Shown in pieces: positions 6,013 to 57,700 of a stretch of 64,000 nt of DNA. The stretch is from an uncultured Clostridia bacterium (GTDB taxonomy: Bacteria > Bacillota > Clostridia > Christensenellales > Borkfalkiaceae): contig CANQQY010000003.1 in assembly GCA_947626105.1 (NCBI GenBank), positions 62,001-126,000 of the forward strand. The letters are read 5' to 3'. Below the pieces are notes generated by a model. The model worked only from the letters and a program-made list of their open reading frames with translations, was not told where the DNA came from and ran no database searches. Each line of letters opens with the position of its first letter. The first letter of the stretch is position 1. The translations under genes and the position numbers were made by a program.

Positions 6013-6399
6013 GGGCCTGTTACGGATTCGATTGCAAGCGGATCTTGTCGGACGCACGCCGGAGGCTCGGCTCCGTAAAAACGGAAAAATTATAATTGCT
6101 GACGAAAAATCCAGCAGACGCGCTTCCGCGCGCAGAGCTTCCGCTCGCCGCGTAGCGCTTGCGGCTTAACCTTTAAGCCCCGTCCTTCCCCGGAGGCCTA
6201 CGGCCGGGGACAGGGCGTTATCGAGTAGGGAACGTTGCCCTTCGGCGGATCTCCCCCAAAGGGCGAGGCATTTCGGAGATGTGCATGCGAAGGAGTTTGT
6301 CTGCGGACTCCCCGCCTGCGAGAACGACCACAGACTAAGCGTGTAGTGTCCGCATCTGAACCTTGTAAGACCGGAGTTCGACTCTCCGCAGGTCCACCA
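6013..6399 (+). ncRNA. ssrA: transfer-messenger RNA (tmRNA)
   Basis: tmRNA rescues stalled ribosomes. The acceptor stem pairs GGGCCTG (6013-6019) with CAGGTCC (6389-6395), followed by an encoded ACCA (6396-6399). The T-arm is CGGAG-TTCGACT-CTCCG (6372-6388). The tag reading frame runs from the resume codon GCT at 6098 to TAA 6167-6169: 23 residues beginning ADEKSSRR and ending VALAA, with two ASARR copies in the middle. The LAA end fits ClpXP recognition, but the arginine content is unusual. Total length is 387 nt. The prophage begins at the last base, and the phage DNA replaces the normal downstream terminator. Confidence 0.93.
6393..6399 (+). other. attL core at the 3' end of ssrA
   Basis: TCCACCA, the last seven bases of tmRNA, recurs at 51153-51159 inside the recombinase gene. 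Joining the phage flanks of both copies rebuilds an attP with inverted arms GTGTTCG (51129-51135) and CGAACAC (6413-6419), 17 and 13 bases from the core. This is the symmetry expected for a large serine recombinase site. Confidence 0.7.
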
Positions 6400-7380: not shown

Positions 7381-7559
7381 GCTGCACCTCCTTCGCTCGG
7401 TGTCCCGAGGATCTTTTCCTTGCGCTTTTGAAGTTCCTCCGCGCGTTCGATGAGATCGACGTCATCCCGCTCGTTGAGCCGTGTAGCGATCGCTTTGATG
7501 ATGTCGTTCTGCTCTTCGATGATTGAGCAGAGGGCTTCGAGTAGTTCTTGGTTCATCAT
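7377..7559 (-). CDS. small phage protein, helical
   Basis: A 60-residue protein starting MMNQELLEALCSIIEEQNDI and continuing as charged helix to EGGAA. It is predicted to be almost entirely alpha-helical. It overlaps the preceding gene by an ATGA junction, with AGAAGGAGGAAGCGG as ribosome site, so the pair is translationally coupled. Small helical proteins of this type (XkdX-like by position) sit between the fibre and holin genes of many phages. Function is unknown. Confidence 0.5.
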   Translation of the reverse strand: MMNQELLEALCSIIEEQNDIIKAIATRLNERDDVDLIERAEELQKRKEKILGTPSEGGAA

Positions 7560-8179
7560 GCCGCCGCTTCCTCCTTCTGCCATCCGTATTCCCCGGGCGC
7601 CCAGACGTTCGCGTCCACGGTGGACGTCCAGTGCTCGCCGTTGTAGGTGACTTTTGCGCCCTTTTCGTAGGCGTCGTGCGCACCGAGGGGGCGACTCCAC
7701 TCCGGCCACTCTTCGGCGGGATCTCCGATCTTCTTCCAGAGTGCCGGGGTTTTCTCGGGAGCCCAGTCCGCTTGCGAGGTGTGCGCTTGGATGCAGCGGT
7801 AGAGCGATTTCCCACTCTTCCGGATCTGGCCCACGCTGTACGCCGTCCCGGGGACCCAGTTCTCGAAGGTGTCGGTGTGTTCGGCTGCCGTCACCTCGTC
7901 GAGATCTCCGCGTTCGGCCATTGCGACGAACATGATGCTCGAGACGTCGCGCTGCTCGCGGACGATGTCGCCGATGTTGAACTTGACGAGAAGCACGACG
8001 GGCGCGTCCTGAATTTCGTCATGTCCGAAGAGGTTGTAGGGCTTCCCCTTGAAGGCGATCCCGACCGCCTCGCTTTCGTCTGCGGTCACGAACACGCCTG
8101 TCGTCGCGTCGCGTTTGATGAAGCGCGGGGTGTCGGTGATGCCGATCTCCGTGCCGTCCGTTTTTACAAGTCTAAACAT
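7556..8179 (-). CDS. phage protein with two CBM5/12-like carbohydrate-binding modules
   Basis: A 207-residue protein. The first 100 residues are unrecognised. After that come two modules of the chitin-binding type 3 (CBM5/12) pattern: WVPGTAYSVGQIRKSGKSLY ending in ALWKKI (about 107-151), and AHDAYEKGAKVTYNGEHW ending in EYGWQ (about 165-203). Each has the aromatic residues that stack on sugars. It may be a tail-tip accessory or bind host wall polysaccharide. It lies after the DGR genes and before the holin. Confidence 0.65.
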   Translation of the reverse strand: MFRLVKTDGTEIGITDTPRFIKRDATTGVFVTADESEAVGIAFKGKPYNLFGHDEIQDAPVVLLVKFNIGDIVREQRDVSSIMFVAMAERGDLDEVTAAEHTDTFENWVPGTAYSVGQIRKSGKSLYRCIQAHTSQADWAPEKTPALWKKIGDPAEEWPEWSRPLGAHDAYEKGAKVTYNGEHWTSTVDANVWAPGEYGWQKEEAAA

Positions 8180-8603
8180 TTTCTCCTCCTTTTGCGCCGA
8201 TCAGCCCCGCGAACTCGCGGAGCTCGGCGATGTCTGCATTGAAAAAGTCGTCGCTCCAGCACCAGAAGTCAGCGTGCTCCCGCATCCTGAAGTGTCGGAA
8301 TTTCGGCTCATTTTGCAAAACGATCCCCCAGAGCCGCTTCCGCTCGGCGAGTTGCTTCTCGGTTGCCCGGGGTTTCCGTCGGAGCGTCTGCTGGATCGCC
8401 TGCGTCAGTTTGCCGCGCTCGATGCCGTTCCCGTCGTCGTCGCGGGCGAGGTATTGATGCGCGAGTTCGCTGCCGCGGAGCATGATCGCCTTGCCGTTGA
8501 GCAGGATGGTCTCGCCGTTGCTTTCACAGACGGTCCCGAAGGGAAGGTTCAAAGGGCCGCTCAGTCCTGTGGCTCTGAGTCGCCTATGTACGATATAACG
8601 CAT
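8172..8603 (-). CDS. conserved phage protein encoded after the DGR reverse transcriptase
   Basis: A 143-residue protein beginning MRYIVHRRLRATGLSGPLNL, with NGKAIMLRGSELAHQYLARD and a C-terminal WCWSDDFFNADIAELREF. I recognise this type from other Clostridia phages near tail-fibre genes, but know no function. Its start lies 43 bases inside the reverse transcriptase gene, with GGAGGAACCAGATCC upstream of the ATG at 8603. The tight overlap suggests it is made together with the DGR proteins. Confidence 0.6.
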   Translation of the reverse strand: MRYIVHRRLRATGLSGPLNLPFGTVCESNGETILLNGKAIMLRGSELAHQYLARDDDGNGIERGKLTQAIQQTLRRKPRATEKQLAERKRLWGIVLQNEPKFRHFRMREHADFWCWSDDFFNADIAELREFAGLIGAKGGENV

Positions 8604-9763
8604 GGATCTGGTTCCTCCTGTTTTCTGACTTTTTTGTGGTATAGGTTGACGCCGAAGAGGTCGCGGAAGCATTTCCGGAGACGCAGGACGCGACCGTTGT
8701 CGTCGAACGATCTGAAGTAGGCAAGCGTCGAGCCCGCCGACTGTTCGATCGCTTCCATCGTCATCTCGCCGCGGGCGAGCATTTCGGCGAAGGCTCTGAA
8801 CTTTCTCCGCGCCCGCTTCATGCTCTCGCGGCATCCGTTGACGGTGATGTGCCCGGTCTCGCTGATCGTGTACTTCGCCTTGCAGAACTTGAAGGGCTTT
8901 GTGAGCGGCTGGACGTGCGTCTTGGCGCGGCCCAGATGGAGCCCCATCTCGGTCGACTGCTCGATCATTGCGTCGAGGATCTGCTCGGGATCCCGATCCG
9001 GCGGGACGAGGATGTTGTAGTCGTCCATGTAGTGCCCGGCTCCCTTCATGCGGAGTTGGGCCTTGATGCGGTTGTCAATAGGTGACGGCAGCGCGACCAT
9101 CTCGATCTGGCTCGGCTCGACTCCGAGAGGAACGCCGAAGTCCCCGGGGATGCGGTTGATGATCTTGTTTCCGATCTCCCGAAGAGCGTCGTCCCTGATG
9201 AGGCGGTCGTGCCTCTGCATGATGGTCGCGCGAGGTGCCGTCGGGAAGAACTTCGTGTAGTCCGCCAAAATGATGAAGCCGTCCCTGCCGTATTTCCGGA
9301 AGTGGGCGACGAGATCCTTGACGAGTTGCGCCTGCGCGAACTTCAGCCCTCTCCCGGGCAGGCTCGCGCCGTTGTTGTAGATCATGTCGGGCAGATAGAG
9401 CGGAAGGAGGACGCGCTGCGTGTAGACTTTGTGGATCTGCCTGTCCTGTATGCGCGGCGCCTCGATCCTTCGGTCTTTTCCGCGCTCATTGACGGGGAAG
9501 ATGACGTACTTCCCGGGGTTCCATGTTCCGTCGAGCAGTTTGCGCCGCCTGACTGCCGTCCCGGAAAAGAGATGCATCTCGAAGGTTTGCGTCGAGTGCT
9601 TCCATCTGACTCCGTTGCAGCACTTCCGCCCGATGAAAAACATGGCGGAATAGGTGAACACGCCTTCGACGCCTCCGAGGGCGTCGCATCGCTCCTGCTT
9701 TCGCCGCTCTCTGGCGGCCTTCCTCCGCTTGTAGCGGGCGTCACGTCGTTCTTTGCTTGTCAT
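8561..9763 (-). CDS. DGR reverse transcriptase
   Basis: A 400-residue reverse transcriptase that would copy the template-repeat RNA with adenine-specific errors. A basic N-terminus (1-25) is followed by the RT domain: catalytic Asp in ILADYTKFF (about 165-173), the DGR-type motif 4 VPLGVEPSQ (211-219, with the LGxxxSQ form), the catalytic YMDD box (245-248), and GLHLGRAKTHVQPLTKPFKF as motif 6/thumb. There is no maturase or endonuclease domain. The ATG at 9763 follows GCGGAGGACTATTCA. TR and Avd lie just upstream and the target fibre before them, the standard DGR order. Confidence 0.92.
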   Translation of the reverse strand: MTSKERRDARYKRRKAARERRKQERCDALGGVEGVFTYSAMFFIGRKCCNGVRWKHSTQTFEMHLFSGTAVRRRKLLDGTWNPGKYVIFPVNERGKDRRIEAPRIQDRQIHKVYTQRVLLPLYLPDMIYNNGASLPGRGLKFAQAQLVKDLVAHFRKYGRDGFIILADYTKFFPTAPRATIMQRHDRLIRDDALREIGNKIINRIPGDFGVPLGVEPSQIEMVALPSPIDNRIKAQLRMKGAGHYMDDYNILVPPDRDPEQILDAMIEQSTEMGLHLGRAKTHVQPLTKPFKFCKAKYTISETGHITVNGCRESMKRARRKFRAFAEMLARGEMTMEAIEQSAGSTLAYFRSFDDNGRVLRLRKCFRDLFGVNLYHKKVRKQEEPDPCVISYIGDSEPQD

Positions 9764-10139
9764 TGAATAGTCCTCCGCGCGATTGTGGTGTAGGGTGCGT
9801 CTAAATCGCTTTGACCGATGCGCATGAAACGGGATTGAGCACGAGATCCTCCCGCCATGCAAGTAGCGTCCGCGCATGGTCCGCGGTGAACACTTTTGGG
9901 ATGAACTCCCGGGAAACGTCTCTCCTTTTGCATAGGTCCACCGGCACCGAAGCGGCACCGATCTCCGACCTGTTAAAAATTGCAAAATCGGGGCGAGCGC
10001 ATACGAATTGTTGGCGTTGTCGTTGTTCGGGTCCCCGTTGTTGACATTGCAGAAGTTGTTCGAGTTGTCCGCATTGACGGACCGCTCCCACCAGTTGCAC
10101 GAAGAGCGGAGACAAAATTTCAGAGACGCACCCACGGCA
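9764..10139 (-). ncRNA. DGR template RNA region (TR plus flanks)
   Basis: The 376 bases between the Avd-like gene and the reverse transcriptase hold the template repeat (9990-10107) and a 226-base spacer before the RT gene. DGRs need TR with flanking RNA as template and priming substrate, so this spacer is probably structured RNA and not coding. No promoter is seen inside it, so it is likely cut from, or copied on, the late-operon transcript. Confidence 0.75.
9990..10107 (-). repeat. DGR template repeat (TR), 118 bp
   Basis: Matches the VR at 10711-10828 with no gaps and 15 differences, all at adenines of the minus-strand TR. Read in the target frame it encodes 13 Asn codons (AAC/AAT), the classic design for mutable positions. 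It contains 31 adenines. Beyond the GCTCGCCCCG end the sequences differ (ATTTTGCAA in TR, CAGCTTTGC in VR), which corresponds to the IMH*/IMH distinction. Confidence 0.95.
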
Positions 10140-10631
10140 TCATTGCCGATTTTTCTTTTTTGCGGCGAGGCGGATCGCGGTGAGTTTTTTCAGGGCTCCC
10201 GTGAGCAGGGCGTTCTCCGCGTCGATCTTTTCGCCGAGCGACTGCGCCATGCTGTCGAGTTTCCGCCGCGCTTCCGATGGCGGCAGCGACTTCCCTTCGG
10301 AGTTTGAAAAGCAGCCCTGCGGGTTGTTGTTCAAAACGCGGTAGAGCCGCCCCATCTCGACGTCCAGTGCCATGAGTGCGCCGCGGGCTTCGAGAAGGTG
10401 CTCCTCACGCAGATCGAGACGGACGTTGTCGTCCTCCGTGGGGTAGATGCTGTTCGCCTTTTCGGTGTGTTCGAGTATTTGATGCGCGAGCTTCGAGATC
10501 GGCTCGCGGTATAGGCGCCCCGCTCTGGCGGAGAGCCGCATGAGGAAGTCGTCGACTTCCTCGACGATATTGTTCGCCGTGTTGATGAACTCCACGGAAC
10601 TTTCGGACCTTTTGCTTGCGAGGACGGACAT
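10140..10631 (-). CDS. Avd-like DGR accessory protein (four-helix bundle)
   Basis: A 163-residue, nearly all-helical protein starting MSVLASKRSESSVEFINTAN. It has long amphipathic helices and a basic end (RLAAKKKNRQ). Its place between target and TR, its length and its helical character fit Avd, which forms a basic pentamer that binds the RT and template RNA and is essential for mutagenic homing. The motif ESxxEFIxTA resembles the four-helix-bundle family containing Avd. The ATG at 10631 follows GGAAGGAGAAAGTC. Assignment is by context and fold type. Confidence 0.7.
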   Translation of the reverse strand: MSVLASKRSESSVEFINTANNIVEEVDDFLMRLSARAGRLYREPISKLAHQILEHTEKANSIYPTEDDNVRLDLREEHLLEARGALMALDVEMGRLYRVLNNNPQGCFSNSEGKSLPPSEARRKLDSMAQSLGEKIDAENALLTGALKKLTAIRLAAKKKNRQ

Positions 10632-10656
10632 GACTTTCTCCTTCCCACTCAGTTCT

Positions 10657-10678
10657 CCCGCCCGCTTTCGCAGGCGGG
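10657..10678 (-). promoter_or_regulatory. DGR target-site hairpin/cruciform with GAAA loop
   Basis: On the minus strand CCCGCCTGC-GAAA-GCGGGCGGG forms a 9-bp stem (one G-T pair), 16 bases after the fibre stop and 32 bases past the VR end. In the Bordetella phage DGR a similar short-stem GAAA-loop hairpin downstream of VR is required for target recognition, so this is probably its counterpart. It has no T tract and is not a typical terminator. Confidence 0.75.
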
Positions 10679-10694
10679 ATGAAAAGAGCAGAGA

Positions 10695-13100
10695 TTAGAC
10701 GCAAAGCTGCGGGGCGAGCGCATACGAATCGTTGGCGCCGTCGCCGCCCGGGCCCCCGCGGTGGACATCGCAGAAGTCGTTCGAGTAGTCCGCATTGACG
10801 GACCGCTCCCACCAGTCGCACGAAGAGCTATGATCGTTGTGCTGGCATTTGTCCGTGGGGTTGCCGTTCGCGTAGTATTCCAGCTGCGCCTGATAGTTCT
10901 CTTCCGCCGCGTTCGAGTAGGTGATGGAGCCGAAGATCTCGAACTCCGAGAGGAGGGGAAGGTAGTCCACGGAGCGCGTCACGTTCTCCGGTCTGTTTGT
11001 CCCGTCGCCGACGTTGTCGGTCCAGATGGTCATCGGCTTCATCACGGCGCGGAGATCTTCCTCGAGCGCCGCCATGAGCGTCCCGGGGACGGGAGAGGTC
11101 GCGGGATTTCCGTTCGGATCCTTGCCTTTGACGTTTGTCGAGCCGAGGATGTCGTAGCGGAGATCGCAGGCGGCCCATCCGCCCGTGTTGATCGCGCCGT
11201 TGTGGTTCATGTTGAACCACTTTTCGCCGCTTTCGTCGTAGTCGTAGAGGTGATCATCGCAGAGGGCGACATCCGTCTCATCGTCGACCGCCTTGAAGCA
11301 TCCGAAGCGGATGCCCTTGCCTTCGCGGCTGGAGTTGTGATTGAACGCCGTGATGAAGAGGTAGAAGTCCTCGTTGAGGTCGAGCGTTCCCACCAGCCCC
11401 TCGACGTGCGTCTGCTTCATGGCTCCGATCTGCCAGAGCGATTTTGCGATGTCCGCCGCCGAAGCCGCGGAGATCCTCGCCCACGACTCCGCGTTGATGT
11501 CGGAGTTGTAGACGTCGGAATTGACGGAGAGTTGGCAGGTCGCCTGCGTGTAGTTCGCGCTCTCTCCGACTGTGATCGTGAGCGTTGTCTGCCCTGCCGC
11601 GAGTGCTTTCACGGTGACGGTCTTGCCGCTCACGGATCCGGATGCGATGGAGTTCGACGAGACGGTGATGGCGCCGGAGGCGTTGTTTGTCTTCACGGTT
11701 GCCGTCGCGGTATTGCCGACCGCCCCGGAGATCTTCACGCTCGAGGGCGAGACGGATGCTGTGCCGGTCGCCTTTTTGATGGTGTAGGTCACGGCGAGGG
11801 TGCCGAAGTAGGTGCCCGCGCCCGTGATGGCGAGCGTGTGCTCTCCCGCGTTGACCGCCGTGTTGTTTGAGACGAAATAGTCGGTGCCATCCTTGAGAAC
11901 CTTCCCGCCCAGCGTGACCGAGGTGACGGTCTGCGTGAGCGTGGATCCGTTGTAGGTCGGAGCCGCCCCCAGCGCGACCTCCGCGTCCGTGATGGGCGTC
12001 CCGAGGGTGTCGAGCCGCTTCTTCCCTGCGGGGGAGAGCAGCCCGGGCTTCTCGTCCGTCGCTTCATCGTCCGGTAGCGTCACCTTCTTCGTCGTCGTCT
12101 CGGTGATGTGCCCGTTCTCGTCGTAGGTGACGACGGGGATCTCCATCGTGCCGCCGAAGGTGGTCTTGCCTTCCGAAGCGGTCGAACTTCCCGGCGTGAC
12201 TTTGTTTTTGTGTCCGATGGTCGTGCCGTCTTTCTCGAGGCCGCTCCCGGGCGTGTCGAACTTCTTTGCGAGGGCATCGTTCACTTCCTTTGTCGAGGCG
12301 AGTCCGTCGACGAGATCCGCGACGGGGATCTTCACCGTCTCGCCGCTTTGCAACGTCAGGACGATCTCCTTCGTCGCTTCTGCGTAGGATCCGCTGACGA
12401 CGACCGACTCGAGAGGAAGGTCAAAGTCCTTCGAGTCGAGTTTTTCGCCCTCCGCGTTCTGGAGTTCGATCGTGACGACGAAGGTCTTGGGATCCATCGA
12501 GATGGACAGTTTGTTTCCTGCCTTTTTGCGGATGGCGGGGTGCGCCTCCGCATCCTCGTTGTGCGTCTCGATGGCTTTCGTCGTCGCCGTTCTGATGGGC
12601 TCGTGCGCTTCGGGATCCTCGTCGTGTGTTCTGACGGTCTCCTCGAGCACCTCCCGTGTGATGAGCGCCTCGGGATCCACGTTGACCTCGAGATCCCCGG
12701 TGTTCGAGACTTCGAGCGTCGCAAAGAAGGTGAACACATAGTCGGGCATCTCTTCGTGCGTCGGTGCGCTGACGCCGGTCTCGTCCTGATAGATGGCGAG
12801 AAGCGTCTCCGCCTCCTCGTTGTACTTCGCCCAGACGCCGATCTGGTTGATCGTGTAGGGCTTTTCGATGCCTTCGCTCGTGATCTGAAGTTGGAGCCGG
12901 ACGCTCCCTTCCTCGGTGTTTTCCTTCTTGACGATGCTCATGTCCTGCTTTTTGTTTGCGAGCGTCGTCTGCGCCATGAGCATGAGAGCGGGGACCGTTC
13001 CCTCGCCCGTCGCCGCTTTGGTGATCGTGAGCGTTCCGCCCGTCATCCACCTTGCGAGAAGGGCGCGGCCTGCGTTTGTGATGATTGCATCATTCCACAT
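10695..13100 (-). CDS. tail fibre, DUF6273/C-type-lectin receptor-binding protein, DGR target
   Basis: An 801-residue tail fibre. Residues 1-150 resemble a tail-collar fibre N-terminus (MWNDAIITNAGRALLARWM). Residues 150-445 are fibre shaft, 447-526 a BIG2-type Ig domain (SVKISGAVGNTATATV), and 538-801 a DUF6273/C-type-lectin domain (GGWAACDLRYDILGS, AVMKPMTIWTDN, YLPLLSEFEIFG). The variable repeat covers residues 758-797, from SSSCDWWERS to SYALAP, four residues before the end. It should set receptor specificity, which the DGR can alter. It follows gene I in the baseplate cluster, as expected of a fibre. Confidence 0.92.
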   Translation of the reverse strand: MWNDAIITNAGRALLARWMTGGTLTITKAATGEGTVPALMLMAQTTLANKKQDMSIVKKENTEEGSVRLQLQITSEGIEKPYTINQIGVWAKYNEEAETLLAIYQDETGVSAPTHEEMPDYVFTFFATLEVSNTGDLEVNVDPEALITREVLEETVRTHDEDPEAHEPIRTATTKAIETHNEDAEAHPAIRKKAGNKLSISMDPKTFVVTIELQNAEGEKLDSKDFDLPLESVVVSGSYAEATKEIVLTLQSGETVKIPVADLVDGLASTKEVNDALAKKFDTPGSGLEKDGTTIGHKNKVTPGSSTASEGKTTFGGTMEIPVVTYDENGHITETTTKKVTLPDDEATDEKPGLLSPAGKKRLDTLGTPITDAEVALGAAPTYNGSTLTQTVTSVTLGGKVLKDGTDYFVSNNTAVNAGEHTLAITGAGTYFGTLAVTYTIKKATGTASVSPSSVKISGAVGNTATATVKTNNASGAITVSSNSIASGSVSGKTVTVKALAAGQTTLTITVGESANYTQATCQLSVNSDVYNSDINAESWARISAASAADIAKSLWQIGAMKQTHVEGLVGTLDLNEDFYLFITAFNHNSSREGKGIRFGCFKAVDDETDVALCDDHLYDYDESGEKWFNMNHNGAINTGGWAACDLRYDILGSTNVKGKDPNGNPATSPVPGTLMAALEEDLRAVMKPMTIWTDNVGDGTNRPENVTRSVDYLPLLSEFEIFGSITYSNAAEENYQAQLEYYANGNPTDKCQHNDHSSSCDWWERSVNADYSNDFCDVHRGGPGGDGANDSYALAPQLCV
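10711..10828 (-). repeat. DGR variable repeat (VR), 118 bp
   Basis: The 3' end of the fibre gene. Compared with TR, the 15 changes on the coding strand are 12 A-to-G, 2 A-to-C and 1 A-to-T, and none lies at a C, G or T of the template. 15 of 31 template adenines are changed. Most change the amino acid, for example Asn to Asp, Tyr, His, Arg or Gly. This shows that retrohoming has occurred at least once. Confidence 0.95.
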
Positions 13101-32669: not shown

Positions 32670-33997
32670 TTATTCTGTGGGGGTGAGTATTTTCGAGAGA
32701 GCCGCCGCCCCGAGTTCCTTGCCCTCCCTGATACACCGGATGTCCGTCTTTCCCGTGACTTTGATGTAGCGGCGGACGATGACGTCGACGTACTCCGGCG
32801 CGAGTTCCATCATGTAGCAGATCCGCCTCGCCAGTTCGCAGGCGATGAGCGTCGAGCCGCTCCCTCCGAAGAGGTCGAGAACGACGTCGCCGATGTTGCT
32901 CGAGTTTTCGAGGGCTTCCGTGATGAGCGCGATCGGCTTCATGGTGGGGTGTTCTTTTGATTTTGTGGGGCGGTCATACTCCCAGACGCTCGTCGTGTGG
33001 TATTTGCCGCGCCCGTAGAATTTGTGGCGGACGTTCCAGCCGTAGGCGATGGGCTCGTGCTGGTAGTTGTAGTCGGCGCGGTTCAGGACGATCGACTGCT
33101 TTTTCCAGACGAGCGTGTGCTTCACTTTCCAGCCCGCCGCTGACATTGCGAGCATCATCTCGACGTGCATCGGGCCCTGAGGCATACAACAATAGAACGC
33201 GCAGTTCTCCTTTGCCGCCGCCCTCATGTTTTCAAACGCGGGCCGCCAGAGCCGAGCCGCCGCCTCGTCGTTCGAGGCGAAGGAGTCGTTGAGGATCTTC
33301 GCACGGTCTCCTTCGACTCCTGTGTAGTCGACGTTGTACGGGGGATCGGTGAATACGAGATCCGCTAATACCCCCCCGTCAGCAGTTGGACGGTCGCCGC
33401 GTCCGTGCAGTCGCCGCACATGACGTGATGATCGCCGAGGATCCAGATGTCCCCGGGACGGCTTACGACTTCCTGCGCCGCTTCCGGTGCATCGTCCGGA
33501 TCCGCCTCGAGTTCCGCGTTCATGGCGGCGGAGAGGGCGGCGGCGATGTCGGTGTACTCTTCCACGCTGTAGCCCGTCCGCTCGATGGGGAGATCTTCGG
33601 CTCCGATTTCCTCGAAGAGCGCGGCGAGTTGCTTCTCATCCGCTTCCGAGAGTTCTGCGATCTTATTGTCTGCCATGAGGTCGGCGATCTCCGCCGCCTC
33701 CGAGTCGTAGTTTTGGAAGTCCACGGGCACCTCCGCCAGATCCTCATGAAGGGCGGCGAGAAGTCGGCCGTGTCCTTTGACGATGAAGCCGGAGCGGTTG
33801 GAGACGGTGATGGGGTTCCGCCAGCCGTTCCCGCGGATGACCGCCCCGAGGCGGGCGATCTGCTCGTCCGGGTGGCGGTTCGGGTTCTTCGGGTTCGGCT
33901 TGAGGTCGCCGATGGGGATGATCGCGTCGTGGGCGCAGTAGACGGGGATCCCGTCCGCGTATGCTCTGGCCGCAGTTGCTTCGGTTTTCTTTTTCAT
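32670..33997 (-). pseudogene. ParB/Srx-DNA methyltransferase fusion, frameshifted at a G7 tract
   Basis: Encodes an N-terminal ParB-like domain (DLKPNPKNPNRHPDEQIARL, GFIVKGHGRLLA) and a C-terminal beta-class adenine/cytosine-N methyltransferase (catalytic DPPYNVDY, SAM-binding DLFGGSGST). The frames are joined at G7 (33371-33377): the upstream part ends LLTGGY-stop. One extra G restores LTGGVLADLVFTDPPYNV and gives 442 residues, close to its intact 444-residue neighbour. It may be a true mutation, a phase-variable switch, or a homopolymer reading error. The ATG at 33997 follows GGAGGGAACGT. Confidence 0.85.
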
Positions 33998-34315: not shown

Positions 34316-35650
34316 TCACGCTTCCACGGAAGTGAAGATCCCGGCGTATTCTTCTGGAGTCGCTTCCTCGCCGCGTCTGATGAGTTTCACGCCGTCCCTG
34401 TCGCCCGTGAGTTCTATGTAGCGGCGGACGATGACGTCGACGTACTTCGGCTTGAGTTCCATCGTGTAGCTCTCCTGCCCGAGTTTTTCCGCCGCCGCCA
34501 TCGTGGGACCGCTTCCGCCGAAGGGATCATAAACGCCGCGGGCGAAGTCGGTATTGTCGAGAAGTTGCTCGAAAAGTTCGAGGGGCTTCTGCGTTTCGTG
34601 GAGTTCGTTGTTCGTCCTGCTGCACTCGATGACGTTCCCGTAGCCCTTGTGCCCGTCGAAGTGCGTTTTTTGCCGCGCTCCGAAGCAGATCAGCTCGTGC
34701 TGCGATCTCCATCCGCTCCCCATGCCCGGTGTTTTCTTGTTCCAGACGATCATCGACTTGACGCCGAAGCCCGCGCTCTCCGTGAGGTCGAAGAGATATA
34801 CCCACATCCGCCAGTCCGTGAAGATATACGAGTAGAGGCAGGGGATGTCCGCGAGTGCCTTGCTGATGAGGTTCTGGTAGCCGCGGGTGCTCAGGATGTC
34901 GTTCTCGATCATCGGAAGTTTCCCATCCGCCCGCATCGTGCCGATGCTTCCGCGGGCTTTGTCGCTTTCCTTCGAGCCGCCCGAGCAGTACGGCGGATCT
35001 GTCATGAGGATCTGCGGCATCGCACCGTCGAGGAGTGCCGCCTTGTCGTCCGCATTTGTGCAGTCGCCGCACATGACGCGGTGTTTGCCCCCGAGGATCC
35101 AGATGTCCCCACGCCGCGTTACGGGTGTTGCAGGGGGTTCAGGAGCCGCGTCGTCGCTTCCATCGTCGTCTGTATCGAAGGCGGAAGAGAGGGCGGCGGC
35201 GAGTTTTTCGCTCTCTTCCTGCGTGTAGCCGGAGAGCCCGAAGTCCAGATCGGACGCGGCGATGGTTTTGAAGGCATCGACGAGAAGTTGCTCGTCCCGC
35301 TCCGCGAGTTCCGCGATGCGGTTGTCTGCCGTCAGATCCGCGAGTTCCGCCGCCTCCGAGTCGTAGTCTTGGAAGTCGACTGGCACCTCTGCCAGTTCTT
35401 CCAGTTCCGCCGCCAGAAGTCGACCGTGCCCCTTGACGATGAAGCCCGACCGCTTCGAGACGGTGATTGGGTTCCGCCAGCCGTTCCCCCGGATGATGGC
35501 ACCGAGCCGCTCGATCTGCTGCGTCGGGTGCTTGTTCGGGTTCTTCGGGTTCGGCTTGAGTTCACCGATGGGGACGATGGCATCGTGGGCGCAGTAGACG
35601 GGGATCCCGTCCGCGTAGCCCTTCGGGCCGTTCTTCTTTTTTTCAGCCAT
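34316..35650 (-). CDS. ParB/Srx-DNA methyltransferase fusion, intact
   Basis: A 444-residue protein with a ParB-like N-terminal domain (GYADGIPVYCAHDAIVPIGE, GFIVKGHGRLLAAELEE) and a beta-class DNA methyltransferase: catalytic LMTDPPYCSGG (about 247) and SAM-binding VYDPFGGSGPTMAAAE. Class order (catalytic then SAM site) predicts N6-adenine or N4-cytosine methylation; no restriction enzyme is adjacent. Its N-terminus closely matches the frameshifted copy at 32670-33997. The start overlaps the SAM synthetase stop. Confidence 0.92.
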   Translation of the reverse strand: MAEKKKNGPKGYADGIPVYCAHDAIVPIGELKPNPKNPNKHPTQQIERLGAIIRGNGWRNPITVSKRSGFIVKGHGRLLAAELEELAEVPVDFQDYDSEAAELADLTADNRIAELAERDEQLLVDAFKTIAASDLDFGLSGYTQEESEKLAAALSSAFDTDDDGSDDAAPEPPATPVTRRGDIWILGGKHRVMCGDCTNADDKAALLDGAMPQILMTDPPYCSGGSKESDKARGSIGTMRADGKLPMIENDILSTRGYQNLISKALADIPCLYSYIFTDWRMWVYLFDLTESAGFGVKSMIVWNKKTPGMGSGWRSQHELICFGARQKTHFDGHKGYGNVIECSRTNNELHETQKPLELFEQLLDNTDFARGVYDPFGGSGPTMAAAEKLGQESYTMELKPKYVDVIVRRYIELTGDRDGVKLIRRGEEATPEEYAGIFTSVEA

Positions 35651-36728
35651 TGATCCAGTCCCCCTTGAAGTAGTGGCAGCCCCCGGCGATCTCCCTGTAC
35701 TTGCGGTGAAGGAGATCGAGGTGTTTGATGATGCCGCTCGGCGTGAGGTCATAACTTGCGGCGACCATCTCCGCGAGTTCCTTGTCGAACTTCCTGCGCC
35801 GCGTCCGGACGTTCACGCTCACCGGCTCGGCGACTCCGATCGCGTAGGCGAGTTGGACGTCAACGGCTCCGAGAGAACTGTCCGCCCGGAGAAGGTCGCA
35901 AGCGATCCTCCGCGCCATGTACGCGCCCGAGCGGTCCACCTTCGAGGGATCCTTCCCGGAGAACGCTCCGCCTCCCACGGGCGCATAGCCGCCGTACTGG
36001 TCGCAGACGATTTTCCGCCCCGTCAGTCCGCAGTCGGCAGCGGGCCCGCCGAGCGTCCACGGTCCCGCGGGGTTGACGATGATCTGGATCTCGGTTCTTT
36101 CGGCTATTCCGCAGGCACCGATGATCATGTCCCTGATGTAGCCCCGCACGAACTCGACCGCCTTCTTGGGATCCCCGTCGCAGAGGTCGGCGCGGTGGCA
36201 GGCGCTGACGAGTATCTTGCGGACGGATCTCATGTCTGCCGGCGCGTCGAGGTCGACGGTCACTTGGCACTTTGCGTCGCCGAGGAGGGGGCACTTCGGA
36301 AGGTCCTCCTTGAAGCCCTCGAGGATCATGATGATGTGGTTCGCCAGCCAGAAGCCGAAGGGGAGCATCCTCCCGGTGTCCGAGCAGGCGAAGCCGCTCA
36401 TCATGCCCTGATCTCCCGCTCCCTGCTGTTTGCCGCCGCCCACGCCGCGGGCGATCTCCGGCGACTGCGTTGTGACGATCTGCTTGACGTGCTTCGCCTC
36501 GTAGCCGAGATCCTTGTAGACGCCCCGAGCGATGGCTTCGTAGTCGACGGATGCGGCTGTCGTGATTTCTCCCGCGAGGACGATCTCGTCCGCCTTGACG
36601 AGCGTCTCGATGGCGACGTGGCTGTTCGGATCCTCCGCGAGGCAGGCGTCGAGGATGGCGTCGCTCACCTGATCCGCGACCTTGTCGGGGTGGTATTTGC
36701 TGACTTGCTCTGTGCTGAAAAGTCTCAT
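35643..36728 (-). CDS. metK: phage-encoded S-adenosylmethionine synthetase
   Basis: A 361-residue methionine adenosyltransferase making SAM from ATP and methionine. The ATP motif KYHPDKVADQVSDAILDA, the family signature GAGDQGMMSGFAC (about 104-116) and the P-loop-like GGGAFSGKDPSKVDRSGAYM are all present. It is somewhat shorter than usual chromosomal enzymes (about 390). It overlaps the intact ParB-methyltransferase gene by 8 bases, so the two are coupled; it probably supplies SAM to the four phage methyltransferases. The ATG follows AAGGAGGAGTAAACC. Confidence 0.94.
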   Translation of the reverse strand: MRLFSTEQVSKYHPDKVADQVSDAILDACLAEDPNSHVAIETLVKADEIVLAGEITTAASVDYEAIARGVYKDLGYEAKHVKQIVTTQSPEIARGVGGGKQQGAGDQGMMSGFACSDTGRMLPFGFWLANHIIMILEGFKEDLPKCPLLGDAKCQVTVDLDAPADMRSVRKILVSACHRADLCDGDPKKAVEFVRGYIRDMIIGACGIAERTEIQIIVNPAGPWTLGGPAADCGLTGRKIVCDQYGGYAPVGGGAFSGKDPSKVDRSGAYMARRIACDLLRADSSLGAVDVQLAYAIGVAEPVSVNVRTRRRKFDKELAEMVAASYDLTPSGIIKHLDLLHRKYREIAGGCHYFKGDWING

Positions 36729-49234: not shown

Positions 49235-49668
49235 GCGCGTTCTATAAAAAAAGAGCCGCCGCCGGTTTGAACTTGGCGGAGGCTGTAGAGATTGTCGAGG
49301 GGTTGCCGGTCGAAGATCAGCGCATCCTTCTCGACGCATTAAGGAAAAAATCACGGCCCGCAAAAGGCACGGAGACGCTCGTCAAGTGCGGTCTGCTCTC
49401 CGCGTCGGGCGCCGCGTCAGTTTGCCCGTCTGACGGCGTTCTGGGCTGTCAGAGGCGGCTCGTGACGTATTTGAAGCGGAAGTTCGAGGACGACGAGTAT
49501 TTTGATCCAGATCTCGGCGAGATGGTTCCCTGTCCGTATGGTGCGGAGTACGTCGCCGCCATCGTTGTGGGCGGAGAGGCTGGCGGGGGCTGGGCGTTCC
49601 CGGACGATGACGTCACCGCGCTCCTCGACCGCTTCGGCGTGAACCGTTGCAGGGGGTGGAAGCCATGA
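49231..49668 (+). CDS. phage protein between repressor and recombinase, unknown
   Basis: A 145-residue protein: GLNLAEAVEIVEGLPVEDQR, LVTYLKRKFEDDEYFDPDLG, VAAIVVGGEAGGGWAFPDDD. It overlaps the repressor by 4 bases and the recombinase start by 4, so the three are one operon. The first part resembles a short helical motif found after repressors; the second is unknown. No enzymatic motif. Confidence 0.5.
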   Translation: MSAFYKKRAAAGLNLAEAVEIVEGLPVEDQRILLDALRKKSRPAKGTETLVKCGLLSASGAASVCPSDGVLGCQRRLVTYLKRKFEDDEYFDPDLGEMVPCPYGAEYVAAIVVGGEAGGGWAFPDDDVTALLDRFGVNRCRGWKP

Positions 49669-51332
49669 GGGCGGCCGTTTATGCTCGCTATTCTTCCCAC
49701 GCCCAGAAGGACACGTCCATTGAGCAGCAGTTCCGCGAGATCCGCGAGTGGGCCCGCGATCACGACGTCCAGATCGTCGCCGAGTATTCTGACCGCGCTC
49801 TCACCGGCACGACCGATAAGCGCGAAGAGTTCCAGAGGATGATCCGCGACTCTGCCCGGGGGCGGTGGGATGTCATCCTCGTCTGGAAGGTCGACCGCTT
49901 CGCCCGGAATAGGTATGATAGCGCGATGTATAAGGCGCGATTGAAGCGGAACGGCGTCCGCGTCATCTCCGTGAAGGAGCCGATCCCCGATGGTCCGGAG
50001 GGCATCCTTCTCGAGTCCGTCCTCGAGGGCTCTGCCGAGTATTATAGCGCGAACCTCTCCCAGAATATCAAGCGAGGCATGAAGCAGACGGCTCTCGAGT
50101 GCAAAGTCAATAACGGCGGGATCCCGCTCGGGTATCGGAAGGGCGACGACTCTCACTATGAGATTGATCCCGCGGGTGCTGCCATCGTCCGGGAGATCTT
50201 CGAGATGTACGCGGCGGGCTCGAACGTGACGCAGATCATAAACGCCATGAACGCGCGAGGGCTCAAAACGTCCCGGGGCGTGAAGTTCAATAAGAACAGC
50301 TTGAAGCGGCTCCTTCGGAACGAGAAGTACGTCGGCGTCTATGCGTGGGGCGACGTCCGCATCGAGGGCGGCGTTCCCGCGATTATTTCCCGCGAACTCT
50401 TCGACGACGTGCAGGAGCGGCTGAAGGTCGTCGCCAGAGCACCGGCAGCGGCCCGCACCGAGGCTGACAACATCCTGACCGGAAAACTTTTCTGCGGCCG
50501 ATGCGGGAGCCCGATGGTGGGCGACTCCGGAACGTCGCGGAGCGGCCGAAAATTTTACTATTACACTTGCGCAAAACGGAAGCGCGACCGCGCCTGTGAT
50601 AAGAAGTCCGTCCGGAAGGCGTGGATCGAGGAGTTCATCGTTCGATCGCTGAAGGAGCGCGTCCTCTCCGACGACGTGATCGCCGTCATCGTCGACTCCG
50701 CTCTGGATCTTCAGAGGCGAGAGCAGGACGACACCGTTCTTCATAACTTGGAGGAGCAGCTCGCGGTCGTGGAGCGCGGGATCTCGAACCTTGTCCGCGC
50801 CATCGAGCAGGGCATCATCACCTCCTCTACGAAGAAGCGGCTCGACGAACTCGAAGCCGAGCGGAACGATCTCGAGATCGCCATCGCGGACGAGAAGATC
50901 CAGCAGCCGCAGTTGACGCGCGAGCAGTTGACCTTCTGGCTCGAACGCTTCCGCGACGGGGATCCCACGGATCCGGCGTACCGGGCGACGTTCATCGAGG
51001 TCTTTGTCTCTTCGGTCTACCTATACGACGACCATCTGCGCGTCGTTTGTAATTTCACGGAGGACGGGGCCGCCGCCTCCTTCGAGTTCGTGGATGGGCT
51101 CGACGAGGGAACGGACGACTCCGCCGAGGTGTTCGACTTTGAGACGCGCTGCTCCACCACGTCGCCGCAAGGCGCGTTTTGCAAAGGGTTGCCGAAAGGC
51201 AACCCTTATGCTTTTTCGGGAGCCCTATGGGCGTTGCTTGCATCTCTGCGGCAGAAAAGCGTGTGCGGATTTGATACCCGGCTCCACTACGCAAGGGACG
51301 CGAGTGACAGAGGATCTTGTCGCCCCTCTTAG
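49665..51332 (+). CDS. int: large serine recombinase (phage integrase)
   Basis: A 555-residue serine integrase. The catalytic domain starts RAAVYARYSS (nucleophile Ser), then SIEQQFREIREWARDH, EYSDRALTGTTDKREEFQRM and WKVDRFARNRYD. The recombinase domain has GGIPLGYRKG, and the zinc-ribbon domain CGRCGSPMVG, with Cys pair partners YYTCAKRKRDRACD. A long coiled coil (about 350-420) controls directionality in this family. The last 59 residues, after CST at the att core, are read from host DNA through a terminator hairpin; in the phage circle the protein would be about 527 residues. Confidence 0.95.
   Translation: MRAAVYARYSSHAQKDTSIEQQFREIREWARDHDVQIVAEYSDRALTGTTDKREEFQRMIRDSARGRWDVILVWKVDRFARNRYDSAMYKARLKRNGVRVISVKEPIPDGPEGILLESVLEGSAEYYSANLSQNIKRGMKQTALECKVNNGGIPLGYRKGDDSHYEIDPAGAAIVREIFEMYAAGSNVTQIINAMNARGLKTSRGVKFNKNSLKRLLRNEKYVGVYAWGDVRIEGGVPAIISRELFDDVQERLKVVARAPAAARTEADNILTGKLFCGRCGSPMVGDSGTSRSGRKFYYYTCAKRKRDRACDKKSVRKAWIEEFIVRSLKERVLSDDVIAVIVDSALDLQRREQDDTVLHNLEEQLAVVERGISNLVRAIEQGIITSSTKKRLDELEAERNDLEIAIADEKIQQPQLTREQLTFWLERFRDGDPTDPAYRATFIEVFVSSVYLYDDHLRVVCNFTEDGAAASFEFVDGLDEGTDDSAEVFDFETRCSTTSPQGAFCKGLPKGNPYAFSGALWALLASLRQKSVCGFDTRLHYARDASDRGSCRPS
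51153..51159 (+). other. attR core inside the recombinase gene
   Basis: TCCACCA, identical to the attL core. The left flank carries the arm GTGTTCG (51129-51135). The right flank is host DNA and begins 24 bases before a strong terminator that would naturally follow ssrA. Confidence 0.7.
51184..51216 (+). terminator. displaced ssrA terminator
   Basis: AAGGGTTGCC-GAAA-GGCAACCCTT (51184-51207) then TATGCTTTTT. It lies inside the recombinase reading frame of the prophage, an unlikely place for a phage terminator, but where the ssrA terminator should be if attB was the tmRNA 3' end. It would now end recombinase transcripts just before the stop codon. Confidence 0.75.
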
Positions 51333-51418: not shown

Positions 51419-51711
51419 AGCAAGGGGATGCCAAGACAACCCCCACTACCGCCGCAAGCGGCGGAGCCGCCCCCTTCAAAGGGGGCAGCCAAGGGACAAT
51501 GGCGTCCGAAGCGGCGCAAATCCCTTCCGAAACGTGAACGAATTTTCAAAAAGTCAAAATTTTCATGCAAAATGTTCCGAAATCATACGAAAAAGTGCGG
51601 ATTGTTCAAATTATTTTTTTCAAACCGATTGACACGCTTCATTTGCTGTGATAAAATGCTAATGCTTATAGTGTCATTCTATAAGAAACTATATTTTAAG
51701 GAGTGGAATTT
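51333..51711. other. intergenic region before the giant lipoprotein gene
   Basis: 379 bases. The first part is palindromic repeat modules (to about 51490); the rest is AT-rich and holds the consensus promoter at 51629-51657 and a 7-bp dyad (CTTATAG / CTATAAG, 51665-51685) in the leader. No gene is seen. Confidence 0.75.
51629..51657 (+). promoter_or_regulatory. promoter of the giant lipoprotein gene
   Basis: TTGACA (51629-51634), exactly 17 bp, TAAAAT (51652-51657). The predicted start is near 51664, giving a leader of about 48 bases with the small dyad at 51665-51685 at its very 5' end, which may stabilise the mRNA. Confidence 0.85.
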
Positions 51712-54700
51712 ATGAACAAATTGAGAAAAGCGCTCGTTGTGATTCTCAGCGCCCTGTTCCTGCTCTGCGTATCGCTCTTTGCGGCATGCACGACCGGTTC
51801 AGGCAAGACTCAGGCGCAAAAGCCCGATGACGCGGTCACGCCCGGCCAGTCGGAGCAAGAGTCAGAGGAGAAACCCGGCGATCCTCAAGAGGAGACCTGC
51901 GACATCCATGTCGAGGTAAACGACGAGGCGCTCGGAGCGTATCGGCTTAGCGGCGAACGCGCGGTAAACGGCGGCTTTAAGGTCGGCACGCCCGTCACCG
52001 TTACGGTCGAACCCGCCGCAGGGTACGACGCAACGCTCAAAGTAAACGGGGAAGAAGTTCCCCTCGACGGCGGCAGCTATACGTTCACCGCCCAAGCGGA
52101 CACGACGCTCTCCGTCGATTACAATTATAAATACCGCATTTCGACCACCGTTCTTGCGGGCGAGGGCACGATCACGCCCGCCGCTCCCGCGGACGGCGAG
52201 AAGTACGCCGAGGGCGAAGATGTCAAAGTCGAAGTCGCGCCCGCAGCGGGCTACGTTGTCGAATATGTCAAGATCAACGGCGTAGTCACCGAGCCCGATG
52301 AGGACGGCAAATACACCGTCAAAATGACGGGCAGAATGTACGTCGTTGCGGAATTTATCGCAGTCCATACGATCACCGTTGAGAACAACGGAAACGGTAC
52401 CGTTACGCTCAATGACGCGGCATACGAAGCGCCCATCGAAAACGTCAAGGACGGCACGGTGTACACCCTCAAAGTCACCCCCGCGGACGGCGAAGAGATC
52501 AAGGCGGTCTATGTGAACGGCGCGCTCACCCCGCTCGACGCGGAAGGCAAGGCGACGATCACCGTCAAGGCGGATACTTTGATCAAGGTCGTCTATGTCG
52601 GGCGTTACACGGTGTCGCTTCCCGAAAACGAGAACGTTGTTGTCAACATTGCGGAAGGCAAAGCGGCGTCCTACGCCGAGGGCACGGTGCTCCACATTAC
52701 CGTTTCCGCGGTTGAAGGTTATAGGCTTACCTCCGTCACCGTCAAAGTCGGCGAGACTCCCGTGGAAGCCTTGGGCGGCGTCTATACCGTCACCATGTCC
52801 GCAAACGTCACCGTAGAGGCGGACGTGGAAGCCCTCGCGGAAGTCGAAAAACACACCGTGACCATTCTCTATAACAACGGTTCCTTTGGCTCGGCGGAGC
52901 TTACCGGCGCAGAAGCCGTTGAAGGGCAGTATGCTTATGGTTCCGAACTCACCCTCACCGTTACGCCCAATGAGGGCAACGAGCTCGACAAGGTCGAAGT
53001 CAACGGCAAGAAGGTCGCGCTCGAAGAGGGCAAGTACACCTTCACCGTAAAAGAAGACACGGCAATCTATATTGTATTTAAGGCTCTGCCCCGCTACATC
53101 GTCACGGTCGACGACCGGACGGGCGCCGACGCTACGATCGCCGTCAGCGAGCCTTTCGATAACAATACCGATAAGGCTTACTACGAAGGCGAGGAGCTCA
53201 CGATCACCGCAACGGAGATCGCCCCTCATTGCCTCGTGTTTGTCGCTGTGGATGGCGGCGAACCCGTGGACATCACGGCGGACGAAAATGGCAATTACGT
53301 TTGGAAACATACGGTCACGGCGGACGTCAAGCTCACAGTTACCGTATTGCATTCCTTCTCGGTCGAGATCAATAACGATCCCTTAAAGGGCACCGTCGAG
53401 CGTCTGCTTGAAGGCGGCAGCACCGAAGCGGTCGAGTCTTGGTATCAAGAAAACGAGGAAGTCACGCTTATCATCACTCCTTTGGAAGGTTACAGGATTT
53501 CCAAAGTTACCGTAGTGAGCGGCGGAGAGTCCTTCGTTGATGAGTTCGATTATATCACCGCAAGCCATACCGTCGCCCTCTTGGGTGAAAACACCGTCGT
53601 CACGGTGGAGTATGTCGCGATTTACGAAATTTCCGTAAACGTTGCGGGCATTGACGGCGTAGAGAACGCTTCCGTCGTCCTCACCGTTGTGAATACGGAA
53701 AGCGGAGAGCAGGTCAAAGAGCTTGGAACGCTCACCGAAAGCGGCGAAAAGACCTATACGCTCGACGAAGGGACTTCCTTGAAGGCTAAATATACCGCGC
53801 CCGTCACGCACCGTATCGGCTTGGATCCTCAAATCCCCGGGGTTTCGTTTGGCGGCATGGGTTATGTGGAACCCGGTGCGGACAAGGAAGGCACTTTTGA
53901 CTTCTCGTTCACTTATAATGGCGGTAGCGTAAGCGTGACTTACGAGCTCTACACCCATACCGTCACGGTCGACGGTCAGTTGCAAGAGGCTCCTGTCACA
54001 AACAGCGAGAGCTACAAACTTCCCGCCCAGCCTGATCCGCAATACGGTTTGAACGGGCTGAACCAGAACTATGAATACACGTTCACTTGGGTTGTCAACG
54101 GCGTTGAGTATGCGGCAGAAGCCACAGTCGAAAATGTCCGCAAAGATCTTGTCGTCACCTCCAAGTGGTCTGCGCAGCTTCCTGTTGAGAAAAGCGTGAC
54201 GGGCACTCCCGAAGGCGGCAGCGTTGATTGGGGCAATCTCCAAGATGCATCCACGCTGATTGAGGGCACCGAGTTCGACGTCACGATCGTCGTTCCCCAA
54301 GGCTATCGGGCTATTGTAAAGTTCTATACTCATACAAAGAATGTAATAACGGGTAGTGAAGGCAAAGTCACTACTGCAATGGGGGTCTATCAGGCCAAGA
54401 CCGAAGACTTGACAGCGCATTTCAAAGATACCGTCCGCGCAGGCCTGAAACTCGAGATTGAAATCACCTACGAAAAGATCTTCACCGTCACCGTAACAGA
54501 GAATGAAAACGTTGACGTCGTGATTTTGTCGCATGGCGATTACAACAACGACTACTTCACCGTAGGCAACGTGTTCGAGTTCACCGTCACCGCGCACGAT
54601 GGTTACAAAGTAACGGCCGTTAAGGCAAACGATACTGTCCTTGATCTCGTCGACGGCAAGTACTCTCACGTTCTCACGGGCGAAACCACGATCACGATCG

Positions 54701-57700
54701 AAACCGTCAAGCTCGCTTCCGTCGCGCTTACCGTAAACGGCGACCCCGAAAGCAACGTCACACTCACCAATGGCGCGGATAGTGTTGAAACCGGCGCTTC
54801 TCTCCCCGTCGGAACCAAACTTACCCTCAACATTACCGTTCCCGAGGGATATAAAGTCAAATATACCGTACCCGGCAGTGAAGTTCAGGAAGCTTACGAA
54901 ACCGTCACCGTAGACGACATCGAGGTTGTGGACGGCGGCATTACCATTTCGGTTGAGTTCGTCAAGGTCTACACCGTGACGGTCGAAGCGGAAAACGCCA
55001 ACGTGACGCTCGATCCCACCAACGATAAAAAAGCCTATGAATTGAACGCCCAAGTCAAAGTTACGGTTGAGGCCGTAGGAGAGTATGTGATCGATTCCGT
55101 CACGGCAGACGTTGAAGGCGCTCTTGTGGATAATAAAGACGGCACCTACACCCTCACCGTTACGGATAACGTCACGATCACCGTGTCCGTGCTTCCCAAG
55201 CTCACGGTAGACTTCCCTGTGTCGAATCCGGACGAGCCGAGCACTTCGAACGGCGCACCCGAACAGGGTGAGTGGAAAGCCATGGACGGCGCGGACAACG
55301 TTATCGAGATCGGCGCCAACACCATGACGATCAACGGCAAGCCTGTCACGAAGATCGAATCAAACGGTAAGACGGATGGCACAGTCGTCTACACCCTCAC
55401 CACGGATGACGGCGACTATACCATGGCGTGGTTCGGCGAAGCAGAGGGCTACATTCTTATGCTTACCGATCCGTCCGCGGCAGTTTCCGTTTCCCGCAGG
55501 GCAGTCCGTACGATCGCGGCGGGGGGGGTGAGCTACTATGTGAACCCCAAGTATTCCGCGGAATATTTTGATGATTTTGTCGAGGGCGACAGCGAGAAGC
55601 TCGTCAATATCGACTGGACGGCGGACGAATCGCATCTCTCCGTGACAAATGTGGACGGCAAGATCCACATCTCTCTCGGCGAAGATGCCGCGAAGTATGT
55701 CTTTGCGGTAGAGGCAGGGCATTATCTGTTTGTCATCGGCGCCGGCGCTTACGATCTTACTCTCGCCGAGGACGGCTCCACCCTCACCGTCAACGGAACA
55801 ACTTACTCCAAACCCGTGGAGAACGAAGTCACGAGAGTTTATGGCGCAGAGCTTCGCGGTGTGTTGCTTGTCCTTAAAATTGAGGTGAAAGGCTATACCC
55901 AAGAAGAATTGAACACTGCCGAAATCAAACTTATTTGCGGCCCGGACAACACTTCTTACGACAAAGCGGCGCTCAATTCGGTTGGCGATTATTATGAGCT
56001 TCACTTTAATGGGATCATCAATTTGGGAGCAGGCGAGCATGAGCTTTCCCTCAAAGTCGGGAATCAGGTATTTGATAACCTGACGGATAGTGCGCAACCT
56101 TCCTCTGTGCCCAATGGCGAAAAGACGTATGAGCTTTCCGTAAAAGAAACGAAGCTCGTTCTTACGGTCTCCGAGAAGACTGTTGAGATCGAGAAGAAAC
56201 TCGAAGATTTCCATGGTGGTTCTTTTAATACCAACGAAGAAACGATTGAGTTCTTTGTACATGTATATGGTTATCAGGATTCCGAGCTTACCGCAGAAAA
56301 TGTATCTCTGGTTTACGATACATATACGGTTGACTGTGCGCTTAGCGGAAGTCTCATTTCCAACAATATCGCGTCGAACAGTCACGTTATTATCCATCTT
56401 CAATTCAAGCTCGAAACAATTGGAGTCCATGGTGCTACCGAGTTAAAGCTGAAAATAGGTGATGATTCCTATTCTATCAATCATTCGGGTCTTGTAGGCA
56501 CCGGCACCAAAGACGGTAAAGTTTACAACATCACCCATGCAGACGGGAAACTTACCCTCACCGTTTCCGAAGCGCAGACCGAGTACACCGTTCGGGTTAT
56601 GGAAGAAAGCAAAATTGATGGTTGCTCCTACGAACTCAAAAACAATGGCGAAGATGTAGGCGAAAAAGTTCCCGCGAACGCGACGCTTACACTCACCGTC
56701 ACTGTTCCCGAAAATTATACGGCAACCGTGAAAGTTGATGGAGCTACGCTTGAAAATAACGGCGAAAATTCCTACACGATCAAGAACATCACCGGCGATG
56801 TCACTATCACCATCACCTACGCCGAAAAAGGCGAAGTTAACGAGCCCATTGATTTGCCCGAAGAAAGAGAACATACTGCGAATGATATTTATGCTGACAA
56901 CTTTTTCTCTTTGCATCTTGCAAATGATGGTGTAAAATGGATCGCAGACAATGGCGTCGTTAAAGTGTTGATTGACGATGCCGATACGCCTACCGTGCAC
57001 GAAGCAAACAAGGGATTTAATATTGTTGGGAATAATGAATCAATCAATGTCATGATCAATGGCTTGACGAAAACTTCCCATAAATCCGAATATGTCCTTC
57101 ATTGGTATAACGAGGCAGGGCAGGAAGTCGCAAGAACAACGGTTCATTTTACCGGCGGTTCCGTTGATCCCGATGCACCCAAGGAGTTGCCTTCCAATGG
57201 TGAAGATAACGCTCCGAACGGATGGTCATATTACAATGAAGGCAGAACAATAAACGCGACAGAAAAAGACGGCATTGTGACCGTTACATTCTCCGGAAAC
57301 CAAAATGGAAATTGGTGGGGCATTCAGGTGTACTATAAGAATAAAGAGTACACTTCGGGCGCCAAGATTACCGTTTCCTTCACGATCACCTCTACGGTAG
57401 CAGGCAAGATTCGCTTCCTCGACAATGGCGAAGATGGGACCGAGGTTCTCGAATTCACGCAGGATAAGCTGACTCTTGATTTCACAAGTAAGGCGTTCGT
57501 CGTCAATAGTAAAAATACCGTTGTCAAACTGTACATGGCTATTGAGAATGAAGCCCGTATCGACGCCGCGACGATCACGATCTCCGACCTTCACATCGAA
57601 AAAGTTACCGATCCCGAACCGCAAAAATCCGTCACGGGAACGACTGCAAAGCTCGAGCAGGACGAAAACGGTGTCTATCTTGTTGTCGACGGTACTTCTA

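Follow-up and report, generated by a model that had tools for sequence, protein, structure and literature searches.

Bordetella phage BPP-1 diversifies its tail-tip gene by adenine mutagenesis of a variable repeat (VR) at the 3' end of that gene; the target is a C-type lectin, and a hairpin follows VR. The RT-2 RNA family owes its name solely to its association with reverse transcriptases (RTs). Much closer to the locus described here are the diversity-generating retroelements (DGRs) of the Faecalibacterium phages Taranis (MG711467), Roos (PP479939) and Pioen (PP479940) (PMC5883640, PMC11792537). Roos and Pioen have been induced, their targets carry DUF6273, and VR variation is seen in their reads (PMC11792537). 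Dulem virus 34 (PP511788) and the gut phage scaffold MT835543 are also among the closest DGRs, and in all five phages the parts follow the same order as in our locus: fibre gene with VR, Avd-like gene, template repeat (TR) and RT.

Examining the window, by which we mean the whole 64,000-nt stretch of DNA analysed, we found a DGR of this known type, new in this genome, whose close relatives are the Faecalibacterium phages. The original prediction of a complete DGR in standard order is borne out: fibre gene with VR at its 3' end, Avd-like gene, TR and RT are where it had placed them, all on the minus strand, and a hairpin with a GAAA loop stands between the fibre gene and the Avd-like gene. Two of the DGR parts listed below, the hairpin (10679-10656) and the RT-2 RNA (9973-9750), are additions to that prediction. 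Its range, 8172-13100, holds all DGR parts and needs trimming at one end, where the gene at 8172-8603 falls outside the element. The features are as follows.

10695..13100, minus strand: tail-fibre gene, the DGR target (801 aa; ORF, PHROG tail fibre, DUF6273, AlphaFold model)
10709..10828, minus strand: VR (fibre codons 758-797; 87% identity to TR)
10656..10679, minus strand: hairpin after the fibre stop codon, sequence TCCCGCCTGCGAAAGCGGGCGGGA
10140..10631, minus strand: Avd-like accessory protein (163 aa; phrog_30516; predicted four-helix bundle)
9988..10107, minus strand: TR, the non-coding donor copy (single copy in the genome)
9750..9973, minus strand: spacer RNA, RT-2 RNA (full-length match to Rfam RF03077)
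8561..9763, minus strand: DGR reverse transcriptase (400 aa; YMDD and LGVEPSQ)
8172..8603, minus strand: neighbouring gene outside the DGR (143 aa; phrog_29409)
49647..51332: serine recombinase

Nearly all parts by which a DGR is recognised, namely the repeats, RT, target, Avd, hairpin and spacer RNA, were as expected. We conclude, with a probability of roughly 95%, that this is a complete and recently used DGR in a contractile-tailed prophage, working by adenine mutagenesis of the fibre VR.

The repeat pair carries most of the evidence. Over 118 nt (TR 10107-9990, VR 10828-10711) the two copies differ at 15 sites, every one of them a template adenine (15 of 31 adenines; 12 A>G, 2 A>C, 1 A>T), and none of the 87 non-adenine positions differs. 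These are exactly the counts of the original prediction, which had also called such a pattern extremely unlikely by chance; the hypergeometric probability is 8.3e-11. With about half of the template adenines altered, no other position touched and the parts in standard order, its claim that retrohoming has happened holds as well. The full repeat extends over 120 nt (TR 10107-9988, VR 10828-10709), and an extra A>C at the 3' end brings the tally to 16 of 16. All 31 template adenines occupy the first or second codon position, never the third, mostly in AAC/AAT codons, with 11 residues replaced in VR. Searches of the rest of the host genome (1.64 Mb, 94% complete) returned neither another VR or TR nor a second related RT.

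The same pattern recurs among relatives. Across all loci, window included, we counted 86 different TRs and 94 different TR/VR pairs whose mismatches are of the adenine type, overall counts that are biased since the search for relatives' pairs left room for few non-A mismatches. Because of this bias, masks of the other bases were run as a control: in the 124 loci with an A-masked pair, masking C yielded pairs in 0 loci, G in 3 and T in 3. An ordinary duplication whose adenine bias is only apparent would account for the existence of two copies and for nothing beyond that; the hypergeometric probability, the adenine pattern in the 94 distinct pairs and the near absence of pairs under the C, G or T masks leave it practically no chance, and we regard it as refuted by the adenine counts and the base-mask control. 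Comparisons between alleles, like those between masked bases, are fairer tests than the overall pair counts. The check proposed with the original prediction, for a fixed VR in related prophages, turned up 7 TRs with at least two VR alleles, several beside 100%-identical upstream sequence, so the prediction was not overturned. Where two alleles share their TR and the 600 nt upstream are 100% identical, the VRs differ at 15, 22, 17 and 20 sites; template adenines make up 15, 21, 17 and 19 of these, respectively. Between Taranis and Roos, all 11 differing VR sites are template adenines. In each allele comparison examined, with 11-22 changed sites, at most one change lies off a template adenine.

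The arrangement is widespread among relatives of the fibre. DGR parts accompany 59 of the 78 viral-contig loci and 37 of the 54 genome loci examined among fibre relatives, and the named relatives are mostly Clostridia, Oscillospiraceae foremost. Thirteen of the 78 viral contigs end inside or at VR, as expected from either VR variation in the population or an assembly break at the TR/VR repeat. In phage Pioen, VR (L027:4529-4667) seems 3 nt longer than TR, in a stretch of AAC repeats, perhaps through slippage during reverse transcription.

For the window phage, its own VR is known from one sequence, and a masked TR pattern search of viral contigs retrieved no second allele. At its repeat end, beyond CCCCG, TR continues as ATTTTGC and VR as CAGCTTTGC (9975-9991 and 10690-10712, respectively), with a 2-nt shift behind the A/C difference that is absent from the aligned ends of relatives. 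In most relatives, an A-to-C difference follows the GC-rich end (a GATTT versus GCTTT type pair when aligned). Just 3' of the fibre stop codon stands the hairpin, with a 10-bp GC-rich stem, in the position of a DGR target-site hairpin; hairpins lie at a similar place in many relatives. An IMH region atypical relative to those of relatives, a single known VR allele and a fibre on a long branch of its tree would together fit a DGR that was once active and is now inactive or degenerating in this lysogen. Against this, RT, Avd and RT-2 RNA each retain their full length, and the absence of drift at the 87 non-adenine positions between TR and VR speaks for recent homing, so that we consider loss of activity unlikely. 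We retain the reading of a recently used element, and infer that the window's copy is still competent.

The RT carries the YMDD and LGVEPSQ motifs (YxDD and an SQ-type motif 4) attributed to it in the original prediction, and it adjoins TR. Its match to Pfam RVT_1 reaches 29.3 bits, slightly below the cut-off of 29.6, and its match to the PHROG reverse transcriptase has an E value of 4e-59. The closest matches are RTs of DGR phages (Taranis, Roos, Pioen and other gut phages), at 50-54% identity. The RT most likely starts at the ATG at 9763. A GTG-started ORF that runs through TR into RT was taken as a chance open frame, because the start at 9763 agrees with relatives. Peptide patterns of the RT protein retrieved no relatives from genome contigs, a search in which alignment of the fibre did better.

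The spacer between TR and RT (9973-9750) is a full-length match to the RT-2 RNA of Rfam (RF03077), at 115 bits against a cut-off of 40. Each of the 25 related DGR loci scanned (24 distinct loci, as L080 and L003 are one contig) carries RT-2 RNA, and neither of two DGR-less fibre loci does. In the window and the 23 relatives tabulated, its start is at most about 20 nt from the end of TR and, in loci with a called RT start, its end is at most about 13 nt from that start. Every RT-2 match above the cut-off in the host genus adjoins an RT of this kind, the RT loci having been found independently. These results suggest that RT-2 RNA probably serves as the DGR RNA's structured 3' spacer, which, by analogy with BPP-1, RT-Avd would use for initiating cDNA. 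Since the spacer is a known Rfam RNA, a covariance model for finding DGRs of this class is ready to hand.

The protein encoded between VR and TR, a position kept in relatives, has no Pfam or NCBIfam match, and its profile found nothing significant among PDB sequences. Its structural model is a helical bundle (pLDDT 89.3) that, in agreement with its earlier description as Avd-like, superposes on Bordetella-phage Avd over 108 aa at an rmsd of 1.8-2.0 (8ub8_D, Z 13.6; 4dwl_C, Z 13.3 and rmsd 1.8). The Avd chains are outranked by no more than two structures, 2gsc and the S23-family protein 2rld; a Z near 13 is borderline for helical bundles, and it is the position of the gene and the tightness of the fit that decide the call. 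The 2018 authors detected no Avd homologue in the Taranis DGR (PMC5883640). The Taranis gene at the same place is 54% identical to the window's protein, and from this identity the predicted fold says that the small gene of Taranis-type DGRs is Avd.

Ahead of the fibre gene lie the genes for Tail_P2_I and baseplate J. The N-terminal part of the fibre protein matches phage tail-fibre families and its C-terminus DUF6273, a domain earlier matched to the C-type lectin fold (PMC10743442). VR covers codons 758-797 of 801, inside this predicted C-type-lectin domain, in line with the lectin-type domain of the original prediction. The AlphaFold model of the C-terminal 270 aa has a pLDDT of 94.8, and its best structural match (VIA-align) is 9qa6, the N-terminal part of Thomasclavelia IgA peptidase (Z 14.9, rmsd 2.9, 183 aa). 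The next matches are the Lcl C-terminal domain and C-type lectins (Z 3.5-6, about 93-123 aa, rmsd 3-4.3), and almost all matches at Z 6 and below are C-type lectins and lectin-like domains. The fibre-domain profile found nothing significant among PDB sequences.

In the mechanism we propose, the TR region would be transcribed together with the structured RT-2 RNA downstream of it, RT and Avd would copy the TR RNA into cDNA with random bases opposite template adenines, and the mutated copy would replace VR at the fibre 3' end, leaving TR unchanged. The RNA and protein roles here are those of the BPP-1 system, from which we infer them. Because the AAC/AAT-rich template would direct changes to codon positions 1 and 2 at the surface-forming end of the C-type-lectin domain, the fibre tip would vary while its scaffold stays constant. 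The varied surface would presumably bind host receptors, and the lectin fold predicted for the fibre, with its place in the tail, makes receptor switching among gut Bacillota plausible. Alternatively, the variable tip may bind mucus, a polysaccharide or another ligand in place of a host receptor. For other gut phages whose DGR targets are Hoc-like, mucus binding has been proposed (PMC5883640), and a lectin-type domain such as DUF6273 is compatible with many ligands; however, a gene with a tail-fibre N-terminus placed after Tail_P2_I and baseplate J occupies the usual place of a receptor-binding fibre, and we hold the alternative to be possible and clearly the less probable of the two.

At the other end of the element, the gene at 8172-8603 was considered as a DGR accessory gene and rejected. 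It lies outside the DGR because the same gene, phrog_29409, also follows the fibre in phages without a DGR. There it sits directly behind related fibres, often within 6-160 nt (loci L065, L081, L118, L111, L127, L128, L145, L161 and others), and no RT, Avd or TR was found within at least 2.5 kb of these DGR-less fibres. No RT of this family was found elsewhere in 9 of the 10 DGR-less records or genomes, some of which are fragments. A tree built from the part of the fibre domain outside VR requires at least 7 changes in DGR presence. Since loci of fibre and phrog_29409 exist without a DGR and its presence changes so often on the fibre tree, the block of Avd, TR, RNA and RT behaves as a modular unit that is gained or lost in the space separating the fibre gene from phrog_29409.

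The surrounding prophage is contractile-tailed, with genes for terminase, portal, Clp-type protease, capsid E, sheath, tape measure, baseplate J and Tail_P2_I. Adjoining the fibre locus is a carbohydrate-binding module 5/12 gene (7556-8179, minus strand), and a tmRNA gene (6013-6399, plus strand) sits right at the lysis-side boundary of the prophage. A search for an attachment-site repeat of the tmRNA 3' end found no shared 14-mer in the window beyond 5 kb. The prophage also contains a full S-adenosylmethionine synthetase gene (35643-36728, minus strand), adjoined by a ParB/DNA-methyltransferase gene (34316-35752) and with a second DNA methyltransferase gene nearby (32670-33419). Just outside the prophage is an open frame of 3590 aa (51703-62475, plus strand), perhaps a giant surface protein.

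The locus is a further clear example of phage fibre diversification in Clostridia-type bacteria, in an arrangement that is widespread; the predicted Avd fold of the Taranis-type gene and the identity of the RT-2 spacer are more useful than the case itself. Compared with Taranis, Roos, Pioen, Dulem virus 34 and MT835543, the window's DGR shares 50-54% identity in RT, 53-54% in Avd and 38-42% in the fibre C-terminal domain, and in all of them, as in the window, VR and TR differ at adenines only. RT-2 RNA occupies the spacer of Taranis, Pioen, Dulem virus 34 and MT835543, the four members of this group that were scanned. Unlike the window phage, the Taranis-group phages belong to another host lineage and have other fibre N-terminal regions, and their phrog_29409 relative lies several hundred bases farther downstream of RT, whereas in the window it comes directly after RT. 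Roseburia phage Shimadzu (LR596903, annotated with Avd and RT) is more distant: its parts stand in the same order and its spacer is RT-2 RNA as in the window, but its RT is only 32% identical and similarity in Avd is undetectable by tblastn. With BPP-1 (Mtd/Avd/bRT), the likeness lies in adenine mutagenesis, the place of VR in the fibre or tail-tip gene, the C-type-lectin target, the hairpin behind VR and the window's Avd-like model, which fits the four-helix bundle of Avd (4dwl, 8ub8), although, in contrast to BPP-1, the protein has no recognisable sequence match to the Avd family in Pfam/NCBIfam, and the target is a DUF6273 fibre where BPP-1 has Mtd.
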